From contig JASBRU010000005.1 in assembly GCA_030149285.1 (NCBI GenBank), positions 186,001-250,000 of the forward strand: a stretch of 64,000 nt of DNA, read 5' to 3'. The translations under genes were made by a program, and so were the position numbers. The stretch's first letter is position 1. Each line of letters opens with the position of its first letter. Shown one piece after another: positions 9,451 to 16,570 of the stretch. The DNA comes from Flavobacteriales bacterium (lineage in GTDB: Bacteria; Bacteroidota; Bacteroidia; Flavobacteriales; JASBRU01). A model generated the notes under the pieces. It saw nothing but the letters and a program-made list of their open reading frames with translations, was not told the origin of the DNA and ran no database searches.

Positions 9451-10458
9451 TTACGGAGCAAAGTTGGGGTTTGTAATAAAGTCTTTATCGGTGAGTGATT
9501 TCAAAAAGTTGATTAGGTCTTGCTTTTCAGAATCCGTAATATCAAAACCGGTAATTAACTCACTTTGATACTTCCCGTGCATCCCTCCTTTTGCATAATG
9601 CTCAATTACTTCCTCCAAGGTATTTAAGCTACCATTGTGCATATAGGGGGCGGTTACTTCTATGTTTCTTAATGTAGGAACTTTAAACTTACCATAGTTT
9701 ACAGAGTCCATTTCTATACGCATTCTACCAATATCTTCATAGACTACATATAAACCGTTATTCTGGAAGGTATTATTGCTAAAGTTAAATCCGGTATGGC
9801 AAGATGAACAGTTCAGTTTATCACTAAAAAACAACTCCATCCCTCTCTTTTCAGAATCATTAAGAGCTGTATCATCTCCTTGAAAATGATATTTATCAAA
9901 AGGTGAGTTACCACTTATAATTGTACGCTCATAAGCAGATATTGCCCTTGTTATACCAAAAGGTGTAACCTCATCATTAAACACCTTTTTAAATAACTTT
10001 CTATACTCTGCATTTTGATTTAAGCGCTTAGCTACATCTACAATAGGTATATCCATCTCTTCTGTAGACTCTATAGGAGTAATTACTTGTATCTCTAATG
10101 TGGGTACTCCCCCATCTCTAAAAAAGCTTGTACCGTAAGCAACATTGGCCAAACTCATTGCATTTCTAGTACCCGCCTGATTGTCTATACCTATACTAAA
10201 TCGCTTAGGATCCGTCATGGCATTTTGCATAAAATGGCATGAACCGCATGATATTGTAGAGTCTCTAGACAGTGCTGTATCAAAAAAGAGCTTCTTACCA
10301 AGCTCAATTTTAGCATTGGTCATAGGGTTATCTTCGGGAATTTCTAATTCAGGGAAACCTTGCGGCAATTCAGACACATACTCATCATTTTGCTGACAAG
10401 AACTATATATAAAAGGGATAAAAAATAATAGAGGTATAATACGCTTGATAGCTCTCAT
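9451..10458 (-). CDS. Diheme cytochrome-c peroxidase / MauG family, MbnH-like
   Basis: This 335-residue lipoprotein (lipobox SSC at residues 19-21, followed by QQNDE) has two c-type heme sites: CGSCH at 71-75 and CSSCH at 217-221. A C-terminal segment TLRNIEVTAPYMHNGS (Met273, His274) holds residues that could ligate a heme. The family includes H2O2-reducing peroxidases and MauG-like enzymes that oxidise protein side chains. MbnH, a member, converts a Trp of its partner MbnP to kynurenine so that MbnP can bind copper. Three MbnP-like genes lie directly upstream, the nearest overlapping by one base (TAATG), which favours an MbnH-type role. True peroxidase activity remains possible. Confidence 0.9.
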   Translation of the reverse strand: MRAIKRIIPLLFFIPFIYSSCQQNDEYVSELPQGFPELEIPEDNPMTNAKIELGKKLFFDTALSRDSTISCGSCHFMQNAMTDPKRFSIGIDNQAGTRNAMSLANVAYGTSFFRDGGVPTLEIQVITPIESTEEMDIPIVDVAKRLNQNAEYRKLFKKVFNDEVTPFGITRAISAYERTIISGNSPFDKYHFQGDDTALNDSEKRGMELFFSDKLNCSSCHTGFNFSNNTFQNNGLYVVYEDIGRMRIEMDSVNYGKFKVPTLRNIEVTAPYMHNGSLNTLEEVIEHYAKGGMHGKYQSELITGFDITDSEKQDLINFLKSLTDKDFITNPNFAP

Positions 10459-11222
10459 TATTCAATGCTAAATGCATTTACAAAATTATCCATTATGCGT
10501 GTAGCAATATGTTTATCAGAAGGTGTTACGTGAGATTGATTATCTACAGTAATATCTACCTTGCCGGCATCTCCATTAAATATCTCAAACATATCTACAT
10601 CAATATTCACCACTTCAGTAGATGTAGTATTGGTAGTAAATGTATGCTGAAGACCTCCTATTTTTCTATACAATGGATTTGTTCCGGGGTGTATAGATAC
10701 TAATACATCTGTAGCTGAGCCTAAGTTACCTACTGTATCTACCCTGCCATCAAACATTGCAAATTTATACTGCGATGCCCAACTCCAATATGTACCTTGA
10801 CTGATACCTAATGGATGTGATTGTGGGAAAGTAGCAGGATCTGAAGCATTTAATACAGAGTCTAAACCTATACCAAACTTAATTGCCACATAGTTACCAG
10901 AAGGCACATTCATTCTTACTTTTTTACTAAAATTGCTTTTAAAGTCTACTAAGGCAACATCTTTTACCTCTATTTCAGTTAAATCTGCCTTAACTAAGGT
11001 AACTCTAGAAATATAAAATTTAAAGGTCTCAAATTTTGTTGGATGTGAGTCTTCATTTAAAAACTCTGTATCTACACTAAAATCATTTGTTCCTACACTT
11101 GCACTAAAATCTAACCTTAAATTATTCTCAACTGGTAAAATTGGTTTAGGGTCATCCTCACACTCAGAGAAAGTAAATGTGATGAAAATAAATAATGGCA
11201 ATATGTATCTAAGTGCTTTCAA
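10458..11222 (-). CDS. MbnP-like putative copper-binding protein, copy 3
   Basis: This 254-residue exported beta-rich protein belongs to the MbnP family. Family features are the RLDFSASVG strand near residue 36, KFYISRVTLVK near 68, and the tryptophan motif YWSWASQYKF with Trp146 and Trp148, followed by a V.IHPG strand. It has a signal sequence ending FSEC; Glu at -1 of the cysteine is poor for a lipobox, so lipidation is uncertain. The start is TTG at 11222 (an in-frame ATT lies just upstream). It is the third MbnP gene and abuts the diheme enzyme gene, so it is a natural substrate candidate. Confidence 0.85.
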   Translation of the reverse strand: MKALRYILPLFIFITFTFSECEDDPKPILPVENNLRLDFSASVGTNDFSVDTEFLNEDSHPTKFETFKFYISRVTLVKADLTEIEVKDVALVDFKSNFSKKVRMNVPSGNYVAIKFGIGLDSVLNASDPATFPQSHPLGISQGTYWSWASQYKFAMFDGRVDTVGNLGSATDVLVSIHPGTNPLYRKIGGLQHTFTTNTTSTEVVNIDVDMFEIFNGDAGKVDITVDNQSHVTPSDKHIATRIMDNFVNAFSIE

Positions 11223-11227
11223 AATAT

Positions 11228-11980
11228 TTATTGTAAGTGTATGGCGTTATTAAAATTGGTAGCTATTATAGTAGATAACGCAAAATCTGCTGCTTTTGTT
11301 GGATTAGATGTTGCTTTCGGTTGATTAATAAAATTAATACCATCTACAAGTACTTCTACATCAAACGAGTAATCAAAGTCTACATATCTATTTGCTCCAA
11401 CAGAAAAAGTTCTTAATTGAGCTCTGCTAAAGGCAAATTGATTTGCTCCAATATGATATGAAAATGGTACAGTTGGCTCTTTATCTTGAGTTGAACTCGT
11501 ATCAACAGCCCCCTCTAATATTAAAAACTTATAGCCTCTGCTATCGCCAAAGTGCCAGCCCGTCTTTAAGGGATGATTTGGACCTAAAAACTGAGGATAT
11601 ACTTTATTTCTATTAGTATCTAACCCAACCTGAAAGCCAAATTTTCCGCTATACCCACCATTTTCTAACTCTCCAACTGGTATTAATCTATTATTCATTC
11701 CTGCAATATTCACACTATCAAATGAAATTGAGTCTAATCCATCTACAACATATGCGTCAGACACCAAAAACTCTAATTTTGATATTTTAAAACGCTGACC
11801 AAAGTCATTTGTATAGATATTGTTTGGACTAAAAGTAGTAGTATCATAAGTCATATCAAACCTGATACGTACGTTTCTCCCGTCAAAAGAATCGCTGTCA
11901 TCATCATTTTTACATGAAAAAATGAATATGGCTACTGCAAGTAGCATCAGAAATCTCATGAAAGTTTTTTTAGTAGTCAT
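11228..11980 (-). CDS. Divergent MbnP-like lipoprotein, copy 2
   Basis: This 250-residue lipoprotein (lipobox FSC, Cys23, followed by KNDDD, an acidic signal of the type linked to surface export in this phylum) shares the MbnP layout: RIRFDMTYD near residue 38, KISKLEFLVSD near 65, GYKFLILEG near 149 and YHIGANQ. Where copies 1 and 3 have W-x-W, this copy has F144 and D146 (GWHFGDSRGYKF); its only nearby Trp is W142, shifted by two. It may therefore not be modified like the others. It lies between the other two MbnP genes in the operon. Confidence 0.8.
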   Translation of the reverse strand: MTTKKTFMRFLMLLAVAIFIFSCKNDDDSDSFDGRNVRIRFDMTYDTTTFSPNNIYTNDFGQRFKISKLEFLVSDAYVVDGLDSISFDSVNIAGMNNRLIPVGELENGGYSGKFGFQVGLDTNRNKVYPQFLGPNHPLKTGWHFGDSRGYKFLILEGAVDTSSTQDKEPTVPFSYHIGANQFAFSRAQLRTFSVGANRYVDFDYSFDVEVLVDGINFINQPKATSNPTKAADFALSTIIATNFNNAIHLQ

Positions 11981-12027
11981 GGTGTAAAATGTTTTATTCT
12001 AAACAAATATAAAGCTTTTCGGCTATT

Positions 12028-12762
12028 TTACTCTAATGTAACTGCATTCTGCATGTTATCGGCAACGGTTTCTGTTAATGTGTTTGGCATATGTGCTATC
12101 AACGTACCAGACAAGTCAACATTAGTAAATAACTCTGCTACATCAATATTCATATGTAATGTATAGTCTGCATTTGCTTGTGTATCAAAATGGTTTGATA
12201 TAGAAACATTTCTTAATAAATCATCTGTACCAACATGAATCACAAAATCTTTGTCTGCTACTCCATTACCATCTGCATCTACTTTACCTTCTAGTACAAT
12301 AAACTTATATCCACTAGCCCAGCCCCAATGCATAGAAGGGCTTTGGTTTGCCAATGGATTTCCGGTTTTATAGGTAGAAGGGTCATCATGATTAACAGCC
12401 GGATTTACACCTGCATTAAAATTAAAACTATTAAAGTGCCCTACGGCTATATCACCTACAACATAAGAAGGTTGATTTGCATCAAATAAAATATGATTGT
12501 TGTACTCCACATTATCATCATGTCCTACAAGTGTAAAATCTGAAATATAAAACTGAAGTCTATCAATTACATACTTCCTGCCTGTGTTATCTTGTCCTTC
12601 AACTCCCAATTGAATTTCATTATCACCTAAACTAGTATGAAAATGCATACGTAATTTATTAGTGTTTGTAGGTGTTGTAGCGTCATCATCATTTTTTTTA
12701 CAAGCAACAAATACTGATGATGTTAGTACCACTGCTGCTAATAAACCTATATACTTTTTCAT
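12028..12762 (-). CDS. MbnP-like lipoprotein, copy 1, first gene of the operon
   Basis: This 244-residue lipoprotein (lipobox VAC, Cys21, followed by KKNDDD) has the MbnP fold signature: LRMHFHTSLGDNE, YVIDRLQFYISDFTL, then MHWGWASGYKFIVLEG with Trp146 and Trp148, and FVIHVGTDDLLRN. Apart from the lipid-anchored Cys it has no cysteine, so it is not the four-Cys subfamily. It carries many histidines (for example HFHT and NHDD) that could bind metal. Known family members bind copper after Trp-to-kynurenine conversion. A TAAATTTG box (12852-12845, minus) is a probable promoter for the four-gene operon. Confidence 0.88.
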   Translation of the reverse strand: MKKYIGLLAAVVLTSSVFVACKKNDDDATTPTNTNKLRMHFHTSLGDNEIQLGVEGQDNTGRKYVIDRLQFYISDFTLVGHDDNVEYNNHILFDANQPSYVVGDIAVGHFNSFNFNAGVNPAVNHDDPSTYKTGNPLANQSPSMHWGWASGYKFIVLEGKVDADGNGVADKDFVIHVGTDDLLRNVSISNHFDTQANADYTLHMNIDVAELFTNVDLSGTLIAHMPNTLTETVADNMQNAVTLE

Positions 12763-12844: not shown

Positions 12845-12852
12845 CAAATTTA
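12845..12852 (-). promoter_or_regulatory. Probable -7 box of the MbnP/MbnH operon
   Basis: TAAATTTG on the minus strand matches TAnnTTTG. No clear TTTG lies at the usual distance upstream. It would give a leader of about 75 bases before the first MbnP gene. Confidence 0.35.
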
Positions 12853-12993
12853 ACATTCTATACATATAAATGTATAGTTAATTAGTAATGGTACTATTTA
12901 ACCGGTATTTAGTCCCTTACTATTTAGTTTACGAATATTAATGGTAAAAGGTTTCAATAAAAGTACTTTATACATTAGTTTTGCTACAAACAA

Positions 12994-14758: not shown

Positions 14759-15589
14759 CTATTTAAGTTCACTTGATAACAACATATCTATTGTAGTGTT
14801 CATATTTAACTCATCTTGCCCAGGAACAACCATTAACATATCCATATTAGTAGTATAATCTGCAACTTTTAACCAACCAGTAGCTCTATCAATTGTATAA
14901 GTCCCTCCCATGTTTCCGCTAACGGTGGTAGTAATACCTTGCACAAGACCTTCGCCATTTAGTGGGCCTGTGGCTTCTATAAGAACATTATCTCCTGTCA
15001 TTTCTTTAACTGTATAGGTTAACTCTACAGTAAAATCTAAACCGTTTTGATTCATTTCTTGTGCTGTAGTCCATGTATAGCCAACTGTCAAGTCTTCTTC
15101 AGGAAACACAAGTGCCATACCAGAGCCCATTTGATTTAAGTTTAATGACTCCCCCATTGCTTTGGGAAAACCTGTATATGTCATTTCGCCAATAGCTTTA
15201 CCTAGCTTATCTACAGTAAATGCAAACGAGCCTTTAAACATTTGCCCTATTTCAGCAGGTATTGTATCATTCCCCTCTACACTTTCTGCATCAAAAGACA
15301 TCTCTTCTCCTGCAAAATTCACATCTAGTTTATTAATGGTATTTGTAATAGTATATGTTTCATCTTCATTTGTAGCAACAGCTTGCTCCATACTAAAATC
15401 CATCACATTATCTTGTCCATCAACTTCTCCCATTAACGGGGAGCTAATAGACATAGTCATTGACATTTTTGTGTCATACACAGCTCCATCTGCTAAATCT
15501 ATTCTTAGCTTGTTATTTTTCTCTCCACATGATGATAGTGTTGCTAACGTTACAGCAAATACTGCAATTAATTGAATTGCTTTTTTCAT
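14759..15589 (-). CDS. DUF6263 family lipoprotein, paralogue A
   Basis: This 276-residue lipoprotein (lipobox SSC, Cys20, then GEKNNKL) is predicted to be all beta. It matches the DUF6263 pattern: LRIDLADGAVYDTKMSM after the Cys, a long two-lobe body, and a C-terminal GTYTIDRATGWLKVADYTTN. The function is unknown. It is related to the next upstream gene (15719-16570) along its whole length and shares the order of motifs (PEEDLTVGYTWT here, PENKVKVGDSWT there), so the two are probably an old duplication. A promoter-like sequence lies at 15679-15711. Confidence 0.8.
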   Translation of the reverse strand: MKKAIQLIAVFAVTLATLSSCGEKNNKLRIDLADGAVYDTKMSMTMSISSPLMGEVDGQDNVMDFSMEQAVATNEDETYTITNTINKLDVNFAGEEMSFDAESVEGNDTIPAEIGQMFKGSFAFTVDKLGKAIGEMTYTGFPKAMGESLNLNQMGSGMALVFPEEDLTVGYTWTTAQEMNQNGLDFTVELTYTVKEMTGDNVLIEATGPLNGEGLVQGITTTVSGNMGGTYTIDRATGWLKVADYTTNMDMLMVVPGQDELNMNTTIDMLLSSELK

Positions 15590-15678
15590 TTTTTATTCAT
15601 TAAAAGTTTATATAAAAATTACTTATATCCCCCACTCAGCATTTTTTATTAAACCTTTATGTGATGTATAAGATTGCG

Positions 15679-15711
15679 CAAATTTATAATAAGAAACAAC
15701 AACTTCTACAA
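15679..15711 (-). promoter_or_regulatory. Candidate promoter of DUF6263 paralogue A
   Basis: On the minus strand TTG (15711-15709) is followed after 22 bases by TAAATTTG (15686-15679). It would give a leader of about 80 bases and separate control from the neighbouring paralogue. Confidence 0.4.
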
Positions 15712-15718
15712 GAAGTGT

Positions 15719-16570
15719 TTATTCTTTTACTTCGCTTGTAGATGTAATTGTTGTAGTAACAGACATATTCATATCTTGTCCCTGCATACTCATTGCAATA
15801 TTTGTATTCTGTATAACATTACTAGATAAGCTTACACCATGTTTTCTATCTACTATAGCCGTTCCTTTTTGTGTTCCTTTTATAGAAGCTTTTATACCTT
15901 GTAAATCTCCTTCTCCACTAATATCTCCAGAAACACTTAGTAGTACTTCTCTCTTTTTTATATCACTAACAGTATATATAGTATTTACTTTTTTAAGCAT
16001 CCCATTAGCATTCTCTTCTCTGGTAACTGTCCATGAATCACCAACTTTAACCTTGTTTTCCGGCAACACAAAATTCAAATTACTTTGCATTTGATCTAGC
16101 TGCATATTTTTTACCATCTCTTCATTAAAAGCAGAATAGTCTGGCTTACCAATGCTCTCTCCTCTTGTATTAATGGTTTCTAATATCGGTTTTCCTATCA
16201 TACCACCCACTAATTCATGCATTCTTGCCTGAAATGTATCGGTAGAGTCATAATCTTCCGAATTATAAGAACTATTACCCCCTCCTTGTTCCATAGCAAC
16301 ACTCATAGAGTTAAAAACACTTTTCATTTTATAAGTGTCTTTTTCTTTTGACTCAACTGTTTGAGTGATTTTATAAGCCATTTTAGTTGTAGAGCCTGCT
16401 GCTTCGCCTAAGTCCAAAGAGAACGAAACTGCATCAATTGTTAGGGATGTTTCTATCTGACTCCCTTCAGATAAATTAATTCTTAGTTCTACACTTTTAT
16501 TTCTTACAAATGATGACATTACAAACATCATCACTACCAATAAAGGTCCTGATTTGATTAGATTCTTCAT
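15719..16570 (-). CDS. DUF6263 family exported protein, paralogue B
   Basis: This 283-residue protein is exported through an N-terminal signal segment (GPLLVVMMFVMSSFV) but has no lipobox cysteine, unlike paralogue A. Motifs in the same order as its neighbour include LRINLSEGSQIET near the N-terminus, LPENKVKVGDSWTV near the middle and GTAIVDRKHGVSLSS near the C-terminus. It is probably a periplasmic or secreted beta-rich protein of unknown role. It has its own TAAATTTG box (16601-16594, minus) about 24 bases before the ATG. The intergenic gap to paralogue A is 129 bases. Confidence 0.78.
   Translation of the reverse strand: MKNLIKSGPLLVVMMFVMSSFVRNKSVELRINLSEGSQIETSLTIDAVSFSLDLGEAAGSTTKMAYKITQTVESKEKDTYKMKSVFNSMSVAMEQGGGNSSYNSEDYDSTDTFQARMHELVGGMIGKPILETINTRGESIGKPDYSAFNEEMVKNMQLDQMQSNLNFVLPENKVKVGDSWTVTREENANGMLKKVNTIYTVSDIKKREVLLSVSGDISGEGDLQGIKASIKGTQKGTAIVDRKHGVSLSSNVIQNTNIAMSMQGQDMNMSVTTTITSTSEVKE

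Follow-up and report, generated by a model that had tools for sequence, protein, structure and literature searches.

In MbnP, the 2021 structure paper reportedly found that the first Trp of a WxW motif is converted to kynurenine and that Cu(I) is held by a His and a Met. MbnP/MbnH pairs are widespread, yet to our knowledge they are understood in one organism only. The CorA/CorB and MopE/SACCP systems of methanotrophs likewise combine a surface copper protein carrying kynurenine with a dihaem peroxidase-like partner, and their sequences are not markedly MbnP-like according to the 2013 paper (PMC3912023, PMC3621798). Among dihaem enzymes, BthA of Burkholderia has Ser at the inter-haem Trp position and is a peroxidase reducing H2O2; it forms bis-Fe(IV) despite the missing Trp, an absence that its authors call remarkable (PMC6405878).

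The DNA studied here is from a Flavobacteriales bacterium (JASBRU01; assembly GCA_030149285.1, contig JASBRU010000005.1, positions 186,001–250,000), and this whole stretch of 64,000 nt is referred to as the window. It holds a variant of the known MbnP/MbnH system that includes a pseudo-MbnP.

Operon layout, family profiles and fold

The operon runs from three MbnP-like genes (WP1, WP2 and WP3) to a single dihaem gene (MbnH), all on the minus strand, with intergenic gaps of 47 (WP1/WP2), 5 (WP2/WP3) and −1 (WP3/MbnH) bases. The original prediction had described this arrangement, and all four reading frames were found as follows.

12028..12762, minus strand, WP1, canonical MbnP-like lipoprotein (244 aa, lipobox ...FVAC21)
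11228..11980, minus strand, WP2, pseudo-MbnP lipoprotein (250 aa, lipobox ...IFSC23)
10458..11222, minus strand, WP3, MbnP-like, probable lipoprotein (lipobox FSEC21)
9451..10458, minus strand, MbnH/MauG-like dihaem c-type lipoprotein (335 aa, lipobox YSSC21)
12845..12877, minus strand, candidate operon control region (83–115 bases upstream of WP1)

WP3 has a TTG start codon, and its lipobox F-S-E-C is atypical in having Glu at −1. Signal peptides and lipoboxes were seen, and all four proteins would be exported and are probably lipid-anchored. No other MbnP gene is present in the genome assembly, which comprises 9 contigs and is about 76% complete, and a further CCP_MauG gene is located on a different contig, within a frame of 650 aa. 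A neighbouring TonB receptor had been noted as missing; none was found on the window's contig, and all 11 matches in the genome were on other contigs.

The proposed membership of the MbnP and MbnH families is borne out by profile, fold and gene order. Against the Pfam MbnP model PF20243 (curated cut-off 27 bits), scores were 110.6 bits for WP1 (E 1e-31), 108 bits for WP3 (E 7e-31) and 58.7 bits for WP2 (E 1e-15), the lowest of the three and still over the cut-off. TIGR04052 (MbnP_like_WxW, four-Cys) gave about 54 bits for WP1 and WP3, below its cut-off of 140, and did not match WP2; each of the MbnPs holds the lipobox Cys only, in place of the four Cys of this model. The dihaem protein scored 178.5 bits with CCP_MauG and has two CxxCH sites. 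Its best model by far was TIGR04039 (MbnH) at 315 bits, under a cut-off of 363 that was passed by 0/31 related genomes, with the MauG model at 205, and its best PDB match was the di-heme enzyme 6e1c (E 5e-53).

The fold comparison covered the AlphaFold2 models of WP1 and WP2 (pLDDT 90.3 and 88.8), the secondary structures of which are nearly identical. The sole good PDB match for the two models was the MbnP crystal structure 7l6g (E 1e-9 and 8e-7; TM-score about 0.53–0.54 to query), the next matches having E 0.0076 and 0.07. 7l6g is also recovered by sequence with a profile built from WP1–3 and relatives, its GMAWNW and HVGS lining up with MxWxW and HxG; identity between the MbnPs and 7l6g is 12–17%.

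The candidate control region contains a perfect 8-bp inverted repeat (CTATACAT-TTAT-ATGTATAG, 12858–12877), the sole perfect copy in the genome and a possible operator, followed by a Bacteroidetes −7-like TAAATTTG box at 12845–12852. As the −7 box by itself occurs at chance level, the region is best treated as a lead.

Motif states and a conserved clade of pseudo-MbnPs

Motif states were read from alignment columns. WP1 has the complete motif P-S-M144-H-W146-G-W148 with H176, and its Trp146, the first Trp of WxW, aligns with the leading Trp of the 7l6g GMAWNW stretch and is kept in canonical relatives. WxW is also present in WP3 (T144-Y-W146-S-W148, H178), in which Thr replaces Met, and is absent from WP2, the loop of which reads W142-H-F144-G-D146 instead of M-x-W-x-W, with H176 retained. 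Based on the roles reportedly assigned in the 2021 structure paper and on the alignment to 7l6g, the putative copper ligands are Met and His in WP1 and His in both WP3 and WP2.

12325..12327, minus strand, WP1 Trp146 codon (TGG), predicted kynurenine precursor
11549..11551, minus strand, WP2 Phe144 codon, corresponding in register to the missing Trp

The register of WP2 is ungapped to a conserved GYKF, with equal secondary structure, and is fitted by the AlphaFold2 models, which place a short strand at residue 145 in WP1 and 143 in WP2. Since this register and the models put Phe144 at the Trp site, WP2 has neither a kynurenine precursor nor the Met. Trp146 or Trp148 had been named as candidate sites of oxidation; these residues are present in WP1 and WP3, as the sole two Trp of each, and absent from WP2, the sole Trp of which is Trp142. 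The idea that one enzyme matures several carriers is thereby narrowed by sequence to two at most (WP1 and WP3), WP2 having Phe at the kynurenine-precursor position. The other suggestion of the original prediction, that the copies split roles, is supported by the three motif states and by three separate tree positions.

An alternative is that all three MbnPs are MbnH substrates, WP2 via its displaced Trp142, and form a graded set of copper carriers. The operon and fold are common to all three, and the only Trp of WP2 is in the same loop, beside His143, with His176 retained. We nevertheless consider this quite unlikely, as, by the GYKF register and the predicted secondary structure, the Kyn position is occupied by Phe144 and the Met position by Trp142, and the clade mates of WP2 have Arg or Asn at the Trp site and have lost the His. 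Taken by itself, WP2 is likewise an improbable substrate for MbnH.

In an order-wide survey, 398 genomes were searched with WP2, and 236 had a PF20243 match. Gene neighbourhoods were read for 40 of the WP2 matches in family f7, which were picked by similarity to WP2 and are not a random sample. WP2 and WP3 correspond to the two members of a cassette that recurs at these f7 loci, its genes mostly ≤16 bases apart. The first Trp was retained in the downstream copy in 31/31 tandem pairs, whereas the upstream copy had Arg, Asn or a gap at that position in 29/31 and lacked the His in 30/31; WP2 differs in retaining His176. The conserved order of the f7 loci is NUDIX–PlsC–pseudo-MbnP–MbnP–[MbnH]–mpl, where MbnH is present only sometimes and mpl encodes a Mpl/MurC-type ligase, with DUF6263 and OxyR-like genes further out at some loci. 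The window has mpl, MbnH, WP3, WP2, NUDIX, DUF6263 and a LysR-type gene in the same order as relatives, and the place of PlsC is taken by WP1 and an M14 peptidase gene. A conserved gene of ~255 aa beside the cassette in relatives (cluster c1) was considered as a third MbnP and rejected, as its NHQTYF and FPQGTT motifs point to a PlsC-type acyltransferase. Two tandem DUF6263 proteins are encoded at 14759–16570 of the window, and a DUF6263 gene of the same cluster is found between the NUDIX and OxyR-like genes at three other loci (L146, L158 and L174).

Most relatives have no MbnH beside the WP2–WP3 cassette and carry other MbnHs elsewhere in the genome, so the link between cassette and MbnH is not obligatory. 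In families f13–f15, WP3-like genes occur solo or with MbnH, and those of f15 have the same Met-to-Thr change (NTYWSWASKYKF). At five f15 loci (L258–L260, L266 and L267) the WP3-like gene keeps WxW with Thr for Met, and no MbnH was found nearby.

In the tree, WP2 was placed inside a 29-row pseudo-MbnP clade (SH-aLRT 100) and WP3 with intact cassette copies (SH-aLRT 94). WP1 was among MbnH-adjacent MbnPs; its motif suggests a grouping with a 14-row MHWGW clade, its exact place not being resolved by the tree. Recent tandem duplication was rejected as the origin of the three genes, given these distinct positions and the 21–28% identity of WP1 to WP2 and WP3.

The pseudo-copies had a dN/dS of about 0.02–0.08 between close relatives where dS was finite (Nei–Gojobori), values that are rough because dS is often near saturation, and in most testable pairs this was below the value for the active copy. 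On these rough estimates the pseudo-MbnP clade is under purifying selection. The pseudo-copy also occurs alone at the same locus in eight cases (L165, L171, L173–L176, L179 and L182). Loss of active-site residues and the lowest profile score might point to WP2 as a functionless, decaying duplicate, but its frame and signal are intact, its clade extends across a family with SH-aLRT 100, dN/dS is low and mostly under that of the active copy, and the pseudo-copy stands alone at the eight loci. Decay is therefore highly improbable, and the selection test on the clade led us to reject WP2 as a pseudogene. Several pseudo-MbnPs escape PF20243 altogether, so that annotation as hypothetical proteins would follow, and a literature search on pseudo-MbnPs and on MbnPs of Bacteroidetes gave no matches. 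The group is conserved, has been overlooked and is kept by selection after losing its site. That WP2 represents such a clade goes beyond the original prediction, as does the absence of an inter-haem Trp, or of any Trp, from the dihaem enzyme.

Two MbnPs followed by MbnH were seen at 13 loci in several Bacteroidota, and three tandem MbnPs once elsewhere (L146), where no MbnH adjoins them. Of the roughly 140 loci that were read, only the window has three MbnPs with MbnH. In Verrucomicrobiaceae, MbnP and MbnH share a single frame of ~590 codons at three loci (L083:8170-9957, L100:8188-9957 and L112:8215-9981), a natural fusion of enzyme and substrate.

A dihaem enzyme without tryptophan

The haem sites of MbnH are C71xxCH75 and C217xxCH221, and two further positions were located by alignment.

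9595..9597, minus strand, MbnH Tyr288 codon, MauG-type axial haem ligand position (alignment to homologues)
10117..10119, minus strand, MbnH Arg114 codon (AGA), inter-haem Trp position (aligned with the Trp of 6e1c and bCcP FWDGR)

The position of residue 288 is Tyr in 135/140 homologues and Met in the bCcP 1iqc, and we take Tyr288 to be the axial ligand from what is known of the family. MbnH thus has two CxxCH sites with Tyr rather than Met at the axial position, as expected of the MauG/MbnH type. The inter-haem Trp of that type is missing, with Arg114 in its place, and the protein contains zero Trp. This position was Trp in 92, Arg in 15 and other or none in 33 of 140 MbnH-like proteins, and 16/48 MbnHs without the inter-haem Trp, the window's counted, have no Trp in the whole protein. 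The state has switched repeatedly, at least 7 changes being forced by starred tree branches. For MbnHs beside a WP3-type gene at the cassette locus, the Trp was missing in eight (f7) and present in one (f14, L263). The window's MbnH is nearer to Arg-type MbnHs found at MHWGW loci (52% identity) than to cassette MbnHs (≤45%), and an AU test did not reject its grouping with the latter (p 0.27).

At nine loci (L038, L039, L041, L042, L044, L046, L048, L052 and L053) an Arg-type MbnH is followed by a Trp-bearing dihaem gene. Two tandem dihaem genes of Arg and Trp type follow one MbnP at these loci and at L264, which suggests a two-enzyme relay; in the window, no second dihaem gene follows MbnH.

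The dihaem protein could instead be a plain peroxidase or act on other targets, with the MbnPs binding a metal or something else without kynurenine. Its Arg114 in place of the inter-haem Trp and the lack of any Trp are compatible with this, as BthA, also without that Trp, is an H2O2-reducing peroxidase (PMC6405878). Against it, bis-Fe(IV) is still formed by BthA (PMC6405878), so loss of the inter-haem Trp need not stop high-valent chemistry; the axial Tyr288 is retained, whereas bCcPs have Met; and Arg-type MbnHs adjoin MbnPs with intact MHWGW motifs. Overall, we regard a plain peroxidase as rather unlikely.

Proposed model and comparison with known systems

We lean towards a model in which one Trp-free MbnH matures WP1 and WP3 into kynurenine copper sites and WP2 is a non-maturable partner. 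The locus would then encode an outer-envelope kynurenine–copper system of the MbnP/MbnH type, with one dihaem enzyme and unequal MbnPs. By analogy with the family, the MbnH haems and H2O2 would oxidize the first WxW Trp of WP1 and WP3 to kynurenine; because MbnH has no Trp, hole transfer from haem to haem and on to the substrate would have to do without a Trp relay of the MauG type. That WP1 is a genuine MbnH substrate is likely, and with Met144, Kyn146 and His176 it may hold Cu(I) tightly. WP3, without Met, may bind Cu(I) differently or more weakly. WP2 would not be maturable at the kynurenine site. Its gene immediately precedes that of WP3, as in relatives, and the protein is probably a partner of WP3 rather than a third kynurenine carrier; it might help in assembly or dock MbnH or some other envelope protein. 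Several observations count against this model: WP2 retains His176 and has one Trp two residues upstream, which might allow oxidation at a shifted site, most relatives have no MbnH adjoining the cassette, all profile scores are under the NCBIfam cut-offs, the tree place of WP1 is not resolved, and no copper or redox regulation of the operon was seen.

A wider reading, which we hold as possible and advance tentatively, is that pseudo-MbnPs, having kept the fold and discarded the kynurenine/copper site, partner an active MbnP or act alone at the mpl-linked locus, and that the associated MbnHs make kynurenine without a Trp relay. The operon is a built-in comparison, setting one enzyme beside a full substrate, one that lacks the Met ligand and one that lacks the Trp. 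It makes testable how MbnH chooses its substrates and whether the Met ligand and the inter-haem Trp are needed.

Compared with MbnP/MbnH of Methylosinus trichosporium OB3b (PDB 7l6g, 6e1c), the window shares the fold of WP1 and WP2, the WxW and HxG of WP1 and WP3, and a MauG-type dihaem partner in the same operon. It differs in having three MbnPs per MbnH, one of them without WxW, in the absence of the four-Cys motif, a nearby TonB receptor and methanobactin genes, and in an MbnH without the inter-haem Trp. CorA/CorB and MopE/SACCP are each a single pair, and bind copper via two His, water and Kyn (PMC3912023, PMC3621798). BthA and the window's MbnH both lack the inter-haem Trp, with Ser and Arg114 respectively, and BthA is not known to act on an MbnP. 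The f7 loci (L146–L185) are without WP1 and mostly without an adjacent MbnH, and the window in turn has no PlsC and carries an M14 peptidase gene; common to both are WP2, WP3, the gene order and the place between mpl and the NUDIX/OxyR-like genes.
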